Shown: positions 7,806-29,733 of the stretch, piece by piece
How the letters are laid out: each line of letters starts with the position of its first letter
How positions within the stretch are numbered: position 1 is the first letter of the stretch
DNA from: Bacteroidales bacterium
Lineage (GTDB): Bacteria > Bacteroidota > Bacteroidia > Bacteroidales > WCHB1-69
Assembly (NCBI GenBank): GCA_031253655.1
Contig: JAIRVY010000135.1
Location: 1 to 40,772 of the forward strand
Direction of reading: 5' to 3'
Length of the DNA stretch: 40,772 nt
Made by a program: the position numbers and the translations under genes
The notes under the pieces: model-generated
Database searches by the model: none
The model's input: only the letters and a program-made list of their open reading frames with translations
Told to the model about the DNA's origin: nothing

Positions 7806-7879
7806 GGGGCGTTAGCTCAGTTGGCTAGAGCGTTAGACTGGCAGTCTAAAGGTCACGGGTTCGACTCCCGTACGCTCCA
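7806..7879 (+). tRNA. tRNA-Ala (GGC)
   Basis: Cloverleaf; anticodon loop CTGGCAG; acceptor GGGGCGT/ACGCTCC with G3:U70. Confidence 0.95.
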
Positions 7880-7880
7880 C
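7853..7880 (+). repeat. attL: 28-bp tRNA 3'-end core
   Basis: TCACGGGTTCGACTCCCGTACGCTCCAC, identical to 29706-29733. Confidence 0.95.
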
Positions 7881-7999: not shown

Positions 8000-9160
8000 A
8001 TGCGTTTAATTCAAACCTCCCTTCTTAATCAAAAAGCATTAGTATTCAACTATATGCCTGCTAAACTTTGCAAAAACAGATCCGGTTGGATTATAGAATA
8101 TTATGTGGAAAATCCGCTTACTTTTGAAATGTGCCGAGTTCGAAAACGTGTCCATTTTATTAAAAAAAGATACAAAAGTGTGAGAGATGCAGAAAGTCAT
8201 TGCCAAAAAATTATTTACGATATAAATGCAAAGATGGCAAATGGAATTAACCCGATGTTTTCTGATGATAACCCAGTCGGATATACAACCATTGCTGAAG
8301 TTATTAAAAAGTTTTTAGAGGAAAAAACACGCGAAGTACGACCCGACACGATGCGCTCCTACAAATCTTTTTCAAATATTTTTTTAAACTATATTTCTAA
8401 AACGTCTCTCGCTTTTATTTGTAAGTTCGGAAAAATTGAAGCCGCACAATATTTAGACTATATTTATAATGTACGTAAAATATCTCGCCGATCGTATAAT
8501 AACTATTTGAAATTTATTCGGGTTGTTTTTAATTGGGCAATTGAAAAAGGCTACATTTTGACTAATCCTTTTGAGCAAATGAAAACTAAGAAAAAAGAGG
8601 AAAAAAATCGTACTCTTGTGGATTCTGCATCAAGAAAGAAACTAATGGAATATTTAAACGCAAATGATAAGCAGTTTTTAATTGTATTAAAGTTGGTTTA
8701 TAGTGCATTAATCCGCCCCAAAGAGATTACAAATTTACGGGTTTCAGATATAGATTTTAATAACAAAACTGTTTGTGTAAATAGTAAAGCTGCAAAAAAT
8801 CATAACACAAGGTACATAGCCCTTACAGACGATATTTTAAACGATTTAAACTATATTAATGATTTTAAGAAAGATATGTTTTTAATATCTCAAAATATGA
8901 TGCCTGGTTATACTCAAGCACACCGGGCAAAGTACGGGAAAATGTGGGTAAAATTACGTGACAACTTAAAACTACCTAAAACAATGCAACTCTATTCTTT
9001 ACGTGATTCTGGTATTACAGATATGCTTAAAGCAGGTATCGACCCGCTTACCGTTAAACAACATGCCGACCATCATTCGTTAGAAATGACTACAATATAT
9101 TCAAAACACGCGGATCCAAATTTAATAAAAATTATCCGTGAAAAAGCACCGGCGTTTTAA
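8000..9160 (+). CDS. int: tyrosine recombinase/integrase
   Basis: LIRPKEITNLRVSDIDF; LYSLRDSGITDMLKAGIDPLTVKQHADHHSLEMTTIYSKH. Confidence 0.93.
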   Translation: MRLIQTSLLNQKALVFNYMPAKLCKNRSGWIIEYYVENPLTFEMCRVRKRVHFIKKRYKSVRDAESHCQKIIYDINAKMANGINPMFSDDNPVGYTTIAEVIKKFLEEKTREVRPDTMRSYKSFSNIFLNYISKTSLAFICKFGKIEAAQYLDYIYNVRKISRRSYNNYLKFIRVVFNWAIEKGYILTNPFEQMKTKKKEEKNRTLVDSASRKKLMEYLNANDKQFLIVLKLVYSALIRPKEITNLRVSDIDFNNKTVCVNSKAAKNHNTRYIALTDDILNDLNYINDFKKDMFLISQNMMPGYTQAHRAKYGKMWVKLRDNLKLPKTMQLYSLRDSGITDMLKAGIDPLTVKQHADHHSLEMTTIYSKHADPNLIKIIREKAPAF

Positions 9161-13107: not shown

Positions 13108-13697
13108 ACTGGAATTCTAAAAGGTGTATTACAAATCAACCCATTAGATATTGACAGTTCATAAATCGTACCTCCTTTGCAAGGGAATTCTCCCGCCAAT
13201 GAGGTACCTGCCGGAACACTTAAAATTGTTGGGGATACGGATACGGCGTTGGATGCTATTCCGCTTTTATACCAAATAACTATATCCTGTGTTAGACTTA
13301 ACGGAATTGAATTCAATACTAAGTGTGATAAATTATCAAATATATAGCGCGTATCTAATTTTGGTGTAAGTGCTATAGATGTAGAGACTAAATCTTCAAC
13401 GATTAGGGGCAAAGTACTATTACCGGGATCACCTTTGTCGCCTTTTGGACCGGGATCGCCTTTGTCGCCTTTTGAACCTGGATCACCCTTGTCGCCTTTT
13501 GAACCGGGATCACCTTTGTCGCCTTTTGGACCGGGATCACCTTTGTCGCCTTTTGGACCGGGATCACCTTTGTCGCCTTTTGGACCGGGAGTTTCAGTAC
13601 TAATACCGGATTCATCTTGGCAAAATTTATCACTTTTTCGATAGATAAAGCGTTTATCTAACACCTTATCTGTTATGTTTCCCTTATTTTTTTCCAT
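13104..13697 (-). CDS. collagen-like virion spike/fibre candidate
   Basis: Six GP/SKGDKGDP nonapeptide units, then a beta-rich C-terminal domain; ATG at 13697 preferred over the TTG at 13703. Confidence 0.75.
   Translation of the reverse strand: MEKNKGNITDKVLDKRFIYRKSDKFCQDESGISTETPGPKGDKGDPGPKGDKGDPGPKGDKGDPGSKGDKGDPGSKGDKGDPGPKGDKGDPGNSTLPLIVEDLVSTSIALTPKLDTRYIFDNLSHLVLNSIPLSLTQDIVIWYKSGIASNAVSVSPTILSVPAGTSLAGEFPCKGGTIYELSISNGLICNTPFRIPV
13426..13587. repeat. six tandem 27-bp units encoding the collagen-like region
   Basis: GGATCACCTTTGTCGCCTTTTGGACCG and close variants x6. Confidence 0.95.
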
Positions 13698-16995: not shown

Positions 16996-17607
16996 CTAAA
17001 AACGGAAGTTGAAATTCATGGTAGCACCGGCAGGAATGTTTACCGCCATAACCAAATCGTCGCAAATTTCAAGCGGATAGTCGCTAAAGTCAATTATTAC
17101 ACGATCCGGTTGATATTGGTCAGGAGAGAAAAACTGGTTGATGTCAATATTAACCATTTTACCATGACCCAGAGGAGAGGCTTTGGTGAGTTCTATCGAG
17201 GCTTCAAAAGCATCCTGGTTGTTGGTCGTAATTAATAAAGATTTTAATTGTCTTGGGTTGGTGGCGATATATCTTTTAAACGCCTGGATAGTTGCAGCTG
17301 GGTTTCCGCTGGCAAAATCAATAGTTACACCAGGTTCAACTTCAGTACTTCCATCGAAAGCAATAGCTGCTATAGAAAAACCGTTGTCTTTTAATTCTTT
17401 TGTTGAACTTTGATTAATAGGCGCCGATGTACGCGAGGCGTTATAGTCCATTGTGTCGAAAAAAGCACCCAAAAGCGCCACTTTTTGAATTTTGTCGCTA
17501 TTGTTGGTAGCTTTGATGGTAAATTTTTCAAGCATACCATTTTGTACGCTGCGAGATAAGATATTAGCCATTTTTGAGGCTTCTATTTGTAAAATTTTTT
17601 GTGCCAT
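16996..17607 (-). CDS. candidate major capsid protein (beta-rich, no TM)
   Basis: 203-aa soluble beta-rich ORF among small membrane-protein genes, followed by a strong hairpin; FTIKATNNSDKIQKVALLGAFF...LVMAVNIPAGATMNFNFRF. Confidence 0.5.
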   Translation of the reverse strand: MAQKILQIEASKMANILSRSVQNGMLEKFTIKATNNSDKIQKVALLGAFFDTMDYNASRTSAPINQSSTKELKDNGFSIAAIAFDGSTEVEPGVTIDFASGNPAATIQAFKRYIATNPRQLKSLLITTNNQDAFEASIELTKASPLGHGKMVNIDINQFFSPDQYQPDRVIIDFSDYPLEICDDLVMAVNIPAGATMNFNFRF

Positions 17608-18143: not shown

Positions 18144-18338
18144 TTACGGCTCTCCCAGATGATTCACAATTTCGTTTATCTGTTTGATGCTGTAATAATA
18201 CCCGTCAGGTTTGATATGTTGTAAACTTTTACACCTTAGCCACGATTTAAAAGTTTTGGAGCATACACAGTACGCCCGGGCTAATTCTTTCAGCAATCTG
18301 GGTTTGTCGGTTATTTTTTCTCTCTGTCTTGTTTCCAT
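18144..18338 (-). CDS. small HTH (excisionase/MerR-like) protein
   Basis: LLKELARAYCVCSKTFKSWLRCKSL...YYSIKQINEIVNHLG. Confidence 0.5.
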   Translation of the reverse strand: METRQREKITDKPRLLKELARAYCVCSKTFKSWLRCKSLQHIKPDGYYYSIKQINEIVNHLGEP

Positions 18339-18907
18339 AGTGCGCGTATTTGTTCATCAATTAGCAATATCTTATAGTAGTAAGGGTTGCCGGCTTCTAC
18401 TTTCTTTTTTATATCAGCCTGCATTTTTATTATTTTTTCAAATAGTTCGGGGTAAACATCTTTTTTTCGGGAAACAAAACTTTCAACGGTATTAAATAAG
18501 ATAAGATAACTGGTAAAGGTGAAACATTTTGGCGGTACTTGTCTAAGTCCGTGTGCTACAAAATACAGGTCAATGCCGTGGTGTCTGCGGCGTATATACA
18601 GATATTGCATCATTGCCGGCGTTTGTTCATCTAAATATGCCATAGCATCATCAAGTACCAAAATGCCTCCGGAATAGTTGTTTTTTATTGCTTCTAACGT
18701 TTTGGGACCTTCGTAAATCATACGCGCATGCCCTGTGAAGGTTCTTATTTGTTCGTTTGTAATGAGTGGCAATTTACGCCACTCCAAACCATCGGGCGTT
18801 ACAACCAATCCTTTTTTCCCAGTAAGTAATACGGAATTTGCAATAAAAGTAGTTTTACCTGTTCCGTTTACTCCTACTATTAGTGTGAGTTCAGTTTTTC
18901 GTATCAT
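18311..18907 (-). CDS. FtsK/HerA-A32-type genome-packaging ATPase candidate
   Basis: Walker A GVNGTGKTT; Walker B GGILVLDDA; downstream DLYFVAHGLRQVPP; 198 aa. Confidence 0.75.
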   Translation of the reverse strand: MIRKTELTLIVGVNGTGKTTFIANSVLLTGKKGLVVTPDGLEWRKLPLITNEQIRTFTGHARMIYEGPKTLEAIKNNYSGGILVLDDAMAYLDEQTPAMMQYLYIRRRHHGIDLYFVAHGLRQVPPKCFTFTSYLILFNTVESFVSRKKDVYPELFEKIIKMQADIKKKVEAGNPYYYKILLIDEQIRALWKQDREKK

Positions 18908-20752: not shown

Positions 20753-20833
20753 GTTGAATTCGGAAGGCGAAAAAACAAGTAGAGTTTGCGAAGCGTTCAA
20801 GGTAACTCCTTTATACCGCAAACTCTATTTTAT
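20753..20833 (+). ncRNA. candidate sRNA B, convergent with an LPD/BECR-like gene
   Basis: Promoter plus hairpin TAGAGTTTGCG(20780)...CGCAAACTCTA(20827)TTTTATTTATTT. Confidence 0.45.
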
Positions 20834-21254
20834 TTATTTCTAAATTATAATAAAAATAACCGCCTTTCTGCATTTGGACTGTAATTCTAATATGTTCAAG
20901 TTTTTCATCTATATTGCATTTTACTTTAAAATTTAAGTAACCAATAACAACCTCAGAATCTTTTTCTTTTCTGTTTCCAAAATTATTTAACATAGCATAT
21001 TGTATGAGTTTTGGAAGAATTTGTATTACTGCTGACTTTTTTTTATAAATTGCTCCTCCCATTGCTGTTTTTCTGCCTCCGGTAACAGTTATTTTAATAG
21101 TCAATTTTGTATCTTCATTCACAATGTTTTGTCCAGCAAGTTCTGTTTTTACATAATTGATAATATATTTTCTAAGTTCTTTACCCGACATATTACTAAA
21201 TAAATCCTGAGTTTTTACAGATGGGATTACCTTTTGTATGTATTTTTTATCCAT
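20811..21254 (-). CDS. LPD3/BECR-like phage protein, paralog of 24190-24612
   Basis: IKITVTGGRKTAMGGAIYKKKSAVIQILPKLIQYAMLNNFGNRKEKD..IGYLNFKVKCNID. Confidence 0.5.
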   Translation of the reverse strand: MDKKYIQKVIPSVKTQDLFSNMSGKELRKYIINYVKTELAGQNIVNEDTKLTIKITVTGGRKTAMGGAIYKKKSAVIQILPKLIQYAMLNNFGNRKEKDSEVVIGYLNFKVKCNIDEKLEHIRITVQMQKGGYFYYNLEINKIEFAV

Positions 21255-21294
21255 TCTTTTTATTATTAATGTATTAATTATTGTTTTTTAGTGC

Positions 21295-21387
21295 TGTTTA
21301 CCTGTTTACAAAAAATGTTTACCGGATGTTTTCAAATGTAAACTCAGTGTGTACAGGGTGTGTTTTTGGAAGGATTTTGCTGTTTAC
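21295..21387. repeat. cluster of TGTTTAC-type heptamers
   Basis: TGTTTAC at 21295, 21303, 21316, 21381; inverted GTAAAC at 21338. Confidence 0.6.
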
Positions 21388-21487
21388 GGGCGCAGACGTG
21401 ATTTTGAAGGTAAAAATGAGCATAAAATTGTCGGCTTTTGTTAATTCGTTGGTTGATTGTAGTTTCTGTTTTTTGTATTGTGGCTTT

Positions 21488-21547
21488 GAAACAATGTATT
21501 GTGTTTTTGAAAAACTGCGTTTTGTTCTTGAAACAATGAATTATGTT
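21488..21547. promoter_or_regulatory. two 18-bp operator-like sites
   Basis: GAAACAATGTATTGTGTT (21488-21505) and GAAACAATGAATTATGTT (21530-21547), matching sites near the repressor. Confidence 0.55.
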
Positions 21548-21686
21548 AAAAACAAAATTTTAGTTTTTGCGAGCGTTGCCGCCAATATATAAATTTTTAC
21601 ATTTGCCGCCAAAATGATGTTTCCGGAATTTTTTTACTCTGTGTGTGTGCAGTGATACTTCGTATAAGTTGCTTTTTTTTAGTGAT

Positions 21687-21843
21687 TTTAGTGCTATGGT
21701 GCTATGTTTTAGAAGTAGTTGATTTTCAGGCAGCACTAAATTGATTAGTACTTTAGTGCTATTTAGTGCTATTTTAGTGCTACAAAAAACAGGGTTTAAC
21801 TATTTGTGTTTTAAATCGTTACAAAGTTAGTACTTTTAGTGCT
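21687..21843. repeat. iteron cluster TTTAGTGCT; candidate replication origin
   Basis: Direct copies at 21687, 21752, 21762, 21773, 21835; inverted copy AGCACTAAA at 21732; AT-rich tract 21891-21926. Confidence 0.7.
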
Positions 21844-22186
21844 CACTAAAGTACTAAAATTTAGGTAAAAATATCTAAGTATCATTGCAGAAAAAAATAT
21901 AAAAAAAAGATATATTACTATATATAAGCGCATTACATTTTTTTGTTGAATTGTTGATATACAAAAGCACCAATTTTTTTTTCAAAAGCAAGGGGGGCGC
22001 GGGGAAAATAATGATTAATGCTTAATGGTTAGTGATTAATTGGCTGCCGCGATTTGCCTTCTTTCTTCTTTTTGAAAATATATTTTGGTGCTTTGGATTG
22101 ACAACCCTCTGAGAATTGAATATTTGAAATGAAACAAGCCCATAGTGTTGAATATGGGCTTGTGGTGAGGGTAAAGTAAGGATTAT

Positions 22187-22465
22187 TTATCGAAATAAAT
22201 CAGAATGAGTTCCCGTATGGGTTAAAACTACAGTTACAGTGTTTTTATTTACATACCATATAAGTAACCAGTTGGGTTGCAAATGCGCTTCCCACATATT
22301 CGAGTAATTGCCGCTTAATTTATGCGTTTTATACTTGTCTACCGGTAATGTTCCTGTGGCAATAAGTATTTTAATAGCATCATTTAGCAATTCCATATTA
22401 TAGGACCGCTTTTGCATCAATTTTGCCTGTTTTTTAAATTCGTTGGTATATTCAATAGAATACAT
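22187..22465 (-). CDS. YafQ/RelE-family toxin
   Basis: YSIEYTNEFKKQAKLMQKRSYNMELLNDAIKIL...LSGNYSNMWEAHLQPNWLLIWYV. Confidence 0.85.
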   Translation of the reverse strand: MYSIEYTNEFKKQAKLMQKRSYNMELLNDAIKILIATGTLPVDKYKTHKLSGNYSNMWEAHLQPNWLLIWYVNKNTVTVVLTHTGTHSDLFR

Positions 22466-25220: not shown

Positions 25221-28200
25221 CTATTCTTCCATATCAAACCACTTATTAGCAATGGTAATATACTCCGTTCCGCTGCGCTTATCCTTTCCGGGTTTCTCCG
25301 GATCGAGCGTTTGTGCCGGGTTTAGGCGCAAGCCCCAGTAGCGGCAATATTGCGTAAGTTTTTTCCAAAATTTCTGCGGCGTGTAAAAGCGCTTTTGACT
25401 GGGGCACTTATCCAAGTAGTTGTATTGCAGGATAACGCGCTCTATCGGCGTGTTAAGCTGCGTGTCGTTTCGGCTTTCAACGGTGTTTTCGTCAACCCCC
25501 AAGTAGTCGTTAAACCAGCCGAGAAACAACTCGCCTATTTCCTGTTTCAACTGGCGGCGCTCTAAGCGCTCGGTGGAAGCCTGTATCAGCCCGGTCCCGT
25601 TAATGCCCCAGCCATTTTCGCGGGCAATAAAATAGAGTTCCAAACACTCTGCCATGAAATTGTAAAACAGATTCCATTCTTCGCCGTCCCATTCATCAAA
25701 GAAGTTTTTGCCAAACAGTTCTCGCGGTTTGTAGTCGTCATCAAAGAAGTCACAGAAGGCTATCCGGAACTGCCGGTCGCGGATGCTGGCGCTGGTGCCG
25801 TTAATGGCGTGGTTGGTAGTAAGGTAAATCTTGGGAACCTCAGAGCCGGAGAGGGTAAAGCGCGGCTTCCCTTTCGGTTCTACTACCATCTTGCCGGTGA
25901 TGATGGTAAATAGTACATCGAAATCGAAGTTTACCCGGATATCGTCAACAAAAATATTTTCTGTTTTTTCTGTTACTTCTTCCCAAAGGTATTTTTCTTT
26001 ATCCATGTCGCACTTTCCGTTTACATACGCCTGTATGAGCATTTGCTCCAGCGCAACGCCGAGCAGAGACTTGCCGGAACGTCCGTTGCTCTCTCCCACT
26101 TCCGACAGTTTACCGTCCATGCCCACAATTGCCTTTTCGCAGCTTTTATCCCGGTATTGGTGTAACAGATACCCAATGGCGCACATTTTACTTACAAAAT
26201 GCAGATTCGTGTCGGCAATTTCTTCCGGAAATTGTAGAATATCAAGCGCGTTGGTTTGCTGTTTGTGGTCATCATAAAACTTTTCCCAGTAGAAGTTTGA
26301 AGTGTAGTAGAGAAATCGGGCAAAGTCGCATTTTTCACCGAAAGTACTAAATCCCACAAGATACTTACCCATGAGGGAAGCGGGTAAAGAGGATTTTTCA
26401 AGTATTGCTTTGTCAATCTTAACCACGTTAATAATGCGGTCGGTGCGTGTGGCATCAAATTCTTTCAATTGTTCGTGCCAAACGTTTTCTTCTATCAGCT
26501 TCATGGGCTTTTCATTGATGCCGGCTGCCGATATTTCCCAGTATTTGGTTTTGAAAAAAATATTTTCGCTGTCGCGGTTTGGTTTGAGCAGGTTCGGATA
26601 ATAGTAGTCTATATTGCTGATACTTTCGCGCCCGAAGTACATTTTACCGCCTTTTAGCAGCATATTTACAACCGGTTTGTCGCATACTTCTTTTGCTAAA
26701 TCCATGGCAAAGTCGCGGGCTTCGTAGTGGCTTATCATGCGCACGATGTTATCTTCCACTCTTACAAAATCGAAATCGTTGTTGTGGGTGTGAATGCGGT
26801 AAAAGCCGCGGTTGCGGTAAAACTTTAGCATATTCACATAATCGAAGTTGTACAGTTCGTATTCTTCGCCGGTGCGGTCGGTTTTCTTTATTACCTGCCA
26901 AAACTTTTCATCATCGTAGAGCGGTTGCGCCAGTTCCATTTCGTTTTGCTCGTTAAAGCGCCACATATTGCCGCCATATTTGAATTTTGGCAGTTTTTTA
27001 AGCGCTTCAATATGAAACTCGCAGAAATCTTTCCGGTCGTTCAAATACCAAATCTGCATGAGTTGCAAATCCGGTATGGAGGAAATTTTGTATAACTCGA
27101 TATTGATAAATGCCCGGGTTTCTTTTTTGGCAATATCGTTCATCTGTTGCTCAAGTTCTACAATAAACTCCGATTCTTTGCCGGAAAGGCTACCGGTTAG
27201 CAAATCATCAATCCCTTTTTCTGCCGGCGTGTTTCCGCAAACTAAATACACTTCAAGAAATATTTGCCGGTTTGCCAATGTTTGAAACCAGTCGCGGAAG
27301 TTCTTTGCTGCATAGAAAAAATTGCGGCTTCGTTGCGAAACGTCTTTATCTTCCTTTATGTTGTCGGATAGTTCTCTAAAATCGCTATCGAGTACTAAAA
27401 AAACTTCTTGCACTCCGCACCGTTCAATCACTTTCAATACGTTGTCCGGAAACTGTTTGTTTTTGCCAACCAAAGAATTTATACCGGGCATGCCAAAAGC
27501 CGGCATGCCGTGTTTGCACATCTTTTCGGCTTTCTTTTCGCCTTCGGTAAAAAACAATCGCTTTGTTTCCCGGGAGTTTTTGTACATTTCGCGCAATGTT
27601 TCCGGAATATACAGTTGCACACTGGCGCCGTAAGGCGTTTTATACTTGCAAATACTTCCGTCTTTCAATTGGTGGCTTTCTGGGAACTGCCAGCGCACGC
27701 GGTAAAAGTCTCGCAGTTTTTTATTATCTTCTTTAACTTTATACTGAACCTGCCTGCCTTCCAAATCCAAATAGCGAATAATCATATCGTCGCCGTCCAC
27801 AATTTGCCCCATCTCATTGAGCGTTGCCGCCTCAAACACATTGAGGCTTTTAATGCCGTTGTCGGTATTTTCCATTGCCCGCACGTCCTTAACGGTAAGT
27901 CCGGATTGTTCTAATTGCCGGTTTTTAAATGATACTTCCCGGGCGCTTGCTTTAAGCCCACGGTCCCGATGAGGCTCCTCCGGAATGGTGATGTTAAATA
28001 GATCGGCTAAATAGCGCAATGCTTCCGGGTAGGTCTTACCGGTGGCATCCATCACGTATTTTATAGCGCTATTACCGCCATAATCACAGGAAAAACATTT
28101 AAAAAGATACTCCCCTTTTACCTTGCTTACTTTCAGCCCCCGGTCTTTATGGCACATGGGGCACTCTCCGGCATAATCCTTGCCGCTCTTTTTAAGAGTA

Positions 28201-28779: not shown

Positions 28780-28791
28780 ATTTAATATATA

Positions 28792-28986
28792 TTATTTGGT
28801 TAAAATAAATTCGCATGTTTCGCCAACGTAGGCAACACAATTGTCAAAATAGCAAGCGTTGTTACTCTTGCTATAGGTAAATTGTCTAACAATTGTACCT
28901 TCCGGATAGCCCTCTTTCCGAAGTTCCATAATATATCCCGCATTATCGCCGGTTACATCTTTTATCATTATTTTGTTAGTTCGCAT
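28792..28986 (-). CDS. hypothetical small protein, first gene of early operon
   Basis: ORF downstream of the operator/promoter region. Confidence 0.55.
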   Translation of the reverse strand: MRTNKIMIKDVTGDNAGYIMELRKEGYPEGTIVRQFTYSKSNNACYFDNCVAYVGETCEFILTK

Positions 28987-29026
28987 TGCTCTTTTTTCGT
29001 ATTACTTTTTTTATAATTTTGCTTTT

Positions 29027-29080
29027 AAAACAATCCATTGTGTTTTTAAAACAATTGGTTGTTTATACGGCGCAAAAATA
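29027..29080 (-). promoter_or_regulatory. early promoter with two operator-like sites
   Basis: TATTTTTG (29080-29073, minus); AAAACAATCCATTGTGTTTT (29027-29046) and AAAACAATTGGTTGTTTA (29048-29065). Confidence 0.6.
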
Positions 29081-29122
29081 AACTAATTGTTTAATAAATA
29101 CACAAATTGACAATATTTTTTT

Positions 29123-29551
29123 ATGGAAAGTGATAAAACATTAATATTAAATAGAATAAAACAAGTAATGGGACTTAAAACCGATAAGGAATTGGCTCAA
29201 TTTTTAGAAATTACCCCACAGACTTTGTCAAATAATATAAAAAGAAATAGCATTGATTTGGAAAATGTATTGTCAAAATGTGAATTGATAAATTTGAATT
29301 GGCTTTTCACCGGAAGCGGTGAAATGTTCCGAAATATTAACAAAAATGCAATTAATGGCGACAATAACATACAGAATAATATCCAAGCCGGGCATAACAG
29401 TAATGTAGATGCTCGCCAGTATTACAGTGATAGCCCCGATGTTTTGCGGGCGCAGATTGATGCTTTGGATGTCAGGATTAAGGAGAAGGATGCGCAGATT
29501 AAGGAGAAGGATGCGCAGATTAATAAGTTGTTAAATATTATGTCTAAATAA
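29123..29551 (+). CDS. CI-like HTH repressor with C-terminal coiled coil, no S24 peptidase
   Basis: ILNRIKQVMGLKTDKELAQFLEITPQTLSNNIKRNSIDLENVLSKC..NLNWLFTGSGEMF; IKEKDAQIKEKDAQINKLLN. Confidence 0.8.
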   Translation: MESDKTLILNRIKQVMGLKTDKELAQFLEITPQTLSNNIKRNSIDLENVLSKCELINLNWLFTGSGEMFRNINKNAINGDNNIQNNIQAGHNSNVDARQYYSDSPDVLRAQIDALDVRIKEKDAQIKEKDAQINKLLNIMSK

Positions 29552-29705: not shown

Positions 29706-29733
29706 TCACGGGTTCGACTCCCGTACGCTCCAC
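29706..29733 (+). repeat. attR: 28-bp tRNA-Ala 3'-end repeat
   Basis: Identical to 7853-7880. Confidence 0.95.

Follow-up and report, generated by a model that had tools for sequence, protein, structure and literature searches.

A candidate iteron-type replication origin accompanying a DnaG-like primase-helicase in a Bacteroidales provirus and its relatives

SaPI Rep and SCCmec Cch2 each possess a C-terminal domain that recognises iterons located downstream of the protein's own gene (PMC7581432). A cis region downstream of the rep gene is likewise essential in pRN1 (PMC4234260), the replication protein of which, ORF904, has primase, SF3 helicase and winged-helix domains. Phage P4 pairs its primase-helicase alpha with short iterons at two sites, ori and crr, and crr lies just downstream of alpha according to the GenBank annotation. 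Iterons and an A/T-rich unwinding element are also found together in iteron plasmids of the RepA/RepE type. The Rep protein of these plasmids is no helicase, and DnaA assists it. Iterons also serve incompatibility, copy control and partition. Little has been described of how phages of Bacteroidota start replication, and in the open literature we found no iteron origins of the kind reported here for them.

The window, which is the whole stretch of 40,772 nucleotides that was analysed, contains a provirus of about 21.9 kb (~21.85 kb, about 7881-29733) that is inserted in a tRNA-Ala gene and flanked by 28-bp repeats (Table 1). The minus strand carries nearly all of the genes between the repressor and the integrase, and a glucosaminidase is encoded in addition to the proteins listed in the table. 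The structural model of the capsid-like protein has a pLDDT of 62.6 and its top PDB matches are to PRD1 P3 at an E-value of about 2e-3, which weakly suggests a jelly-roll identity. A collagen-like gene contains, at 13395-13610, 27-bp repeats that encode Gly-X-X, and its product is probably a receptor-binding or fibre protein. In the same host genome there is one more provirus from this capsid family, in fragmentary form (G000:C173 = L055; ATPase 46% identity). Judging from sequence comparison, we consider it very probable that positions 21678-21927 are the replication origin of the provirus and that this origin is served by the provirus's own primase-helicase.

Table 1. Positions of the features discussed, numbered along the forward strand of the window.
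Feature	Position	Strand	Basis or remark
tRNA-Ala	7806-7880		
attL core, 3' end of tRNA-Ala, 28 bp	7853..7880	+	identical to 29706-29733
Tyrosine integrase	8000..9160	+	Pfam Phage_integrase 1.1e-17
Capsid-like protein	16996-17607		weak PRD1-P3-like jelly-roll match
Small ATPase	18311-18907		
LPD3-domain gene, first of the downstream, mostly structural block	20811-21254		late operon start 21254
Non-coding gap holding the proposed origin	21255..22186	.	
Outlying exact TTTAGTGCT copy	21287..21295	+	
21-bp-period ATTGTnnnTTTnAAACAAT palindromes, proposed late-operon repressor operators	21477..21558		separate from the iterons
Iteron array, TTTAGTGCT and TNGTRC variants	21678..21858	mainly +	
Imperfect palindrome (inverted iteron pair) AGTACTTTTAGTG-CT-CACTAAAGTACT	21829..21855		kept in relatives, e.g. 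as TTTTNGTGCttTNGTGCGCACNA
A/T-rich stretch, proposed DNA unwinding element	21861..21927		primase-proximal of the iterons; core 21892-21927
Primase-helicase, proposed initiator, 1018 aa	25221..28277	-	Pfam, AlphaFold2, Foldseek
C-terminal segment of primase-helicase (residues about 903-1018), proposed iteron-binding domain	25224..25571	-	secondary structure of the model
Operator-like palindromes upstream of the CI-like gene	29016..29055		same as at 21477..21558
CI-like repressor	29123..29551	+	Pfam Phage_CI_repr 2.3e-11
attR core, 28-bp direct repeat of the tRNA-Ala end	29706..29733	+	

The primase-helicase, which the initial annotation had credited to the element, is predicted to comprise a zinc ribbon, a DUF3854/TOPRIM-like region and a D5/SF3-like helicase. 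Pfam identifies a CHC2 zinc ribbon and a DUF3854 domain, the latter a TOPRIM-like region. The AlphaFold2 model has a pLDDT of 89.4, and the Foldseek matches are to D5/SF3-type primase-helicases that include SaPI5 Rep (7ola), AsfvPrimPol, mpox E5 and NrS-1. Residues 916-1010 of the model run helix-strand-helix-helix-strand-strand, which is the order of a winged helix; from this order of secondary structure rather than from a domain-level match, we propose a winged helix at the C-terminus, and this segment may be the part of the protein that binds DNA.

Like SaPI and SCCmec, the locus pairs a D5-type helicase, here the proposed initiator, with iterons downstream of the helicase gene, and SaPI5 Rep ranks high among the structural matches. 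It differs from them in its primase, which is archaeo-eukaryotic in those elements and DnaG-like here; no archaeo-eukaryotic (AEP) primase is fused or adjacent as in SaPI5, and the CHC2 zinc ribbon and DUF3854 stand in its place. The iteron of SCCmec Cch2 is AAGTG, whereas here it is TTTNGTRCT, and the array here lies kilobases downstream, with genes between, in Bacteroidota hosts. The likeness to P4 lies in the pairing of a primase-helicase with short iterons, but the P4 iteron, GGTGAACA, is unlike that of the window, a profile comparison of alpha with the window protein returns only a weak zinc-ribbon match (probability 42%), and we identified no second, crr-like array. pRN1 resembles the locus in its domain composition and downstream cis region, but has a long stem-loop and an archaeo-eukaryotic primase where we see iterons and only a short imperfect palindrome. 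Finally, iteron plasmids use DnaA, while the gap at 21255-22186 has no DnaA box (TTATCCACA) with 0-1 mismatch.

The 932-bp gap is non-coding, as had been claimed, in that its sole open reading frame, at 21281-21592 on the plus strand, is spurious. Rfam gave only a chance match. Exact copies of TTTAGTGCT lie at 21687, 21752, 21762, 21773 and 21835 on the plus strand and at 21732 on the minus strand. These are the five direct copies and one inverted copy that the initial annotation had placed within 160 bp, and they span 157 bp (21687-21843). One-mismatch forms occur at 21678, 21850 and 22084, the generalised word TNGTRC has 10 sites across 21689-21856, and the direct-repeat part at 21746-21781 is spaced 8-11 bp. 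The imperfect palindrome with a CT centre was found as it had been described, and the 36-bp tract reported as nearly all A/T is 34/36 A/T (94%). GC skew was uninformative, with no clear change of sign at the iteron cluster. Two further observations concern the same gap and its border: a stretch of TAATGATTAATGCTTAATGG type at 22009-22040 has approximately 11 further copies in the host genome at 82-96% identity and is thus a dispersed host repeat within the provirus, and a gene for a YafQ/RelE-family toxin (22187-22465) adjoins the proposed origin.

Repeats of this length might arise by chance or as low-complexity sequence, since the gap is rich in A and T, and tracts of this composition on their own are also found elsewhere in the provirus. 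When the gap was shuffled 1000 times, the best 9-mer per 160 bp reached 2 copies, and 3 in one case; shuffling the element 100 times gave 2 copies every time, and 60 shuffles of the window never gave more than 3. A de novo word scan of the window found comparable clusters only in this array and in the collagen-like coding repeats. Together with the conservation of the word in relatives, described below, these shuffles refute a chance origin, to which we attach next to no probability. The A/T tract by itself is unremarkable because 36-mers that are equally A/T-rich are found at a few other sites in the provirus; it is its conserved position that is notable.

Relatives of the primase-helicase were collected from same-order genomes (ten loci) and then from IMG/VR (80 loci) and GTDB genomes (80 loci), with loci extending up to 10 kb or to the contig end. 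Single-protein queries with the primase, the ATPase and the capsid-like protein against viral collections gave no matches, while alignment-based searches succeeded; a nucleotide search of the array against phages gave no match. Across 160 loci that encode relatives of the protein, the most clustered word frequently has a GTRC core, with the consensus TNGTRC, and hypothesis-free scans of further relatives return the GTRC-core words GCACGAA, ATCGTGC, GTACGAA and GCACAAA repeatedly. This consensus was picked after the data had been seen, and permutation, upstream-flank and new-record controls back the choice. At least eight TNGTRC copies per 250 bp occur in 67/127 loci and in 0 of the shuffles. 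Under the same test with 59 permuted words, the other top-ranked words reach at most 6 loci, with the exception of TNRTGC (35 loci), which overlaps TNGTRC. After dereplication at 90%, 60/100 loci have at least seven copies per 250 bp. The initial annotation had named non-conservation in relatives among the results that would count against its candidate origin; the iterons are conserved, at approximately 60% of the dereplicated primase loci. The other 40% or so show no TNGTRC cluster in the sequence within reach; their words may have diverged, their contigs may end too soon, or they may use a different origin.

Every one of the 67 strong clusters is found downstream of the primase gene, and none upstream; in paired flanks of 53 loci, clusters of at least seven copies number 29 downstream versus 2 upstream. 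The distance from cluster to primase has a median of about 2 kb, often with genes between, and is 3.4 kb in the window. Of the 62 positive loci, 50 have the A/T-rich 40-mer on the side of the cluster that faces the primase and 12 have it within the cluster; none has it on the distal side. A TATAT..CTTTTTT element is present near the cluster in about one quarter of the loci versus about none of the controls. The TGTAACGATTT box of the nearest relatives was considered as a general feature and rejected, being present in 3/62 loci or fewer. In MT835542.1, which lies outside the set that defined the motif, the same array is found ~2.1 kb after the primase, with an A/T tract before the array. The closest primase relative, L143 (= L029; 52-54% identity), has as its top cluster six copies of GCACTAAA, the same word (TTTAGTGC) as the window, in a gap ~1.1 kb after the primase; as in the window, a paired site comes next after the array and then a similar A/T tract. 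The recurrence of array and A/T tract beside related primases supports the reading of the region, already made in the initial annotation, as a candidate origin of iteron-plus-unwinding-element type.

Of the genes in the window, the primase-helicase alone has relatives in all of the other positive loci (61/61); the next-best gene has relatives in 7. This linkage bears on whether the repeats are instead operators for a transcription regulator, the CI-like repressor or another, of the late operon. The repeats do lie upstream of that operon, the provirus does encode a CI-like repressor, and several relatives have repressor-like genes upstream of the primase. However, relatives of the CI-like protein are present in only 3/61 iteron-positive loci, strong clusters are never upstream of the primase, and a single TNGTRC falls in the intergenic region of the CI-like and early genes (28780-29122), which has palindromes of its own with a 21-bp period. 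Exact ATTGTnnnTTTnAAACAAT occurs in the window only at 29037 and 21477. Since the palindromes of the CI-like/early region recur at 21477-21558, the repressor probably acts there, and the ATTGTnnnTTTnAAACAAT palindromes are probably repressor operators that link early and late control. We regard an operator role for the iterons themselves as quite unlikely. A further argument against it, that the CI DNA-binding domain is shared by an element with different iterons, was dropped because the 74% similarity to L058 falls in the C-terminal part of the protein. Three TGTTTACCGG-like decamers are also present at 21295-21390, just upstream of the late operon. The same linkage speaks against a partition (centromere-like) or copy-control site for another protein of the element. 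Iterons serve such roles elsewhere, but the primase-helicase alone accompanies the array in all positive loci and no partition gene was recognised among the scanned open reading frames of the element, which makes this explanation very improbable.

A different question is what the iterons do within an origin. DnaG-type primases begin synthesis at short words, and the GTRC words could be single-strand priming sites of the zinc-ribbon primase rather than double-strand initiator sites, in which case the region would still be an origin. Primase start sites in SCCmec coincide with the helicase iterons (PMC7581432). The inverted pairs, the near-helical spacing, the A/T bases at -1 and -2, and the tight clustering beside an A/T tract nevertheless favour double-strand binding, and we consider a priming role in place of initiator binding unlikely; the two roles may coexist. 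Iteron and protein also covary: on the primase tree, the variable base of the iteron changes 14 times, compared with 24.4 times in shuffles, and 0/200 shuffles are as low.

We also gathered relatives of the capsid module, by means of the ATPase, from genomes of the same bacterial family. Comparing primase-based with ATPase-based relatives separates the companions of the replication gene from those of the capsid genes. A Bacteroidales provirus family with the capsid-like protein and the small ATPase was observed (L053-L059, L146, L152, L155, L224, L226), in which no terminase or tail-tube genes were recognised; in IMG/VR, only 3 ATPase relatives were found. The capsid-like and other structural genes of the window recur in L058 and L056/L227, but there with a VapE-type helicase, and these elements carry CTAACTAC clusters and no TNGTRC cluster. 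The VapE of L056 was foretold from its iterons before the contig was extended and was then found (75% identity), a prediction that is not fully independent because L056 and L058 are close kin in that region. The L056 cluster, like that of the window, lies upstream of an LPD3-domain gene (50% identity), so that the place is the same while the word and the initiator differ. The CTAACTAC/GGTAGTTA iteron clusters of these VapE-type capsid relatives (L056:17300-17499, L058:4964-5164) are likely a second origin type.

The converse arrangement is seen in L143. This locus encodes a ClpP-type head maturation protease (PHROGs match) and is therefore of the tailed kind, although the terminase candidates of the tailed relatives have no PHROGs match. 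Barring a weak 26-residue match, the primase is the sole gene that it shares with the window. The window, L143, L152, L146 and L155 form one fully supported primase clade, and TAGTGC predominates among the iterons of each. Relatives of the window's structural genes are present in L152, L146 and L155, but the sister of the window in this tree, L143, is of the tailed type. From this tree and the gene content, we infer that the replication module moved between virion types and carried its iterons along. More broadly, we lean towards the view that the fusion of a DnaG-type primase with a D5 helicase, together with its TNGTRC origin, is a mobile cassette that has been shuttled as a unit between tailed phages and a little-known, tailless-looking lineage of Bacteroidota proviruses, with the iterons co-evolving with the initiator. 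This would then be among the commonest origin types of phages of the phylum.

The array is real and conserved and, as read from sequence, represents a new iteron family that goes with a DnaG-type primase. The sequence shows the array and that it is conserved, that it keeps a fixed position downstream of the primase gene, that it is linked to the primase-helicase alone, and which domains are predicted for that protein. The steps set out below, from iteron binding and DNA melting through helicase self-loading to priming, and the replication mode, are proposed by analogy, and the best reading is that the origin works like those of SaPI, SCCmec and P4. The origin at 21678-21927 would be used after excision of the provirus. 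The primase-helicase would act as initiator, its C-terminal winged-helix-like domain binding the iterons (consensus TTTNGTRCT; in the window, TTTAGTGCT), and the protein would form SF3-type rings over the array and the inverted pair, whereupon the neighbouring A/T tract would melt and allow the helicase to load itself there, after which the DnaG-type zinc-ribbon/TOPRIM-like part would prime and a host polymerase would carry out synthesis.

If so, one word and one initiator family predict where replication starts in dozens of phages and prophages, and origins of this kind accompany the same copying enzyme across dozens of otherwise unrelated Bacteroidota viruses. Origin recognition, the co-evolution of iterons and initiators, and the exchange of replication modules between virion types thereby become directly testable, and the array with its initiator would provide a replicon part for Bacteroides genetics.
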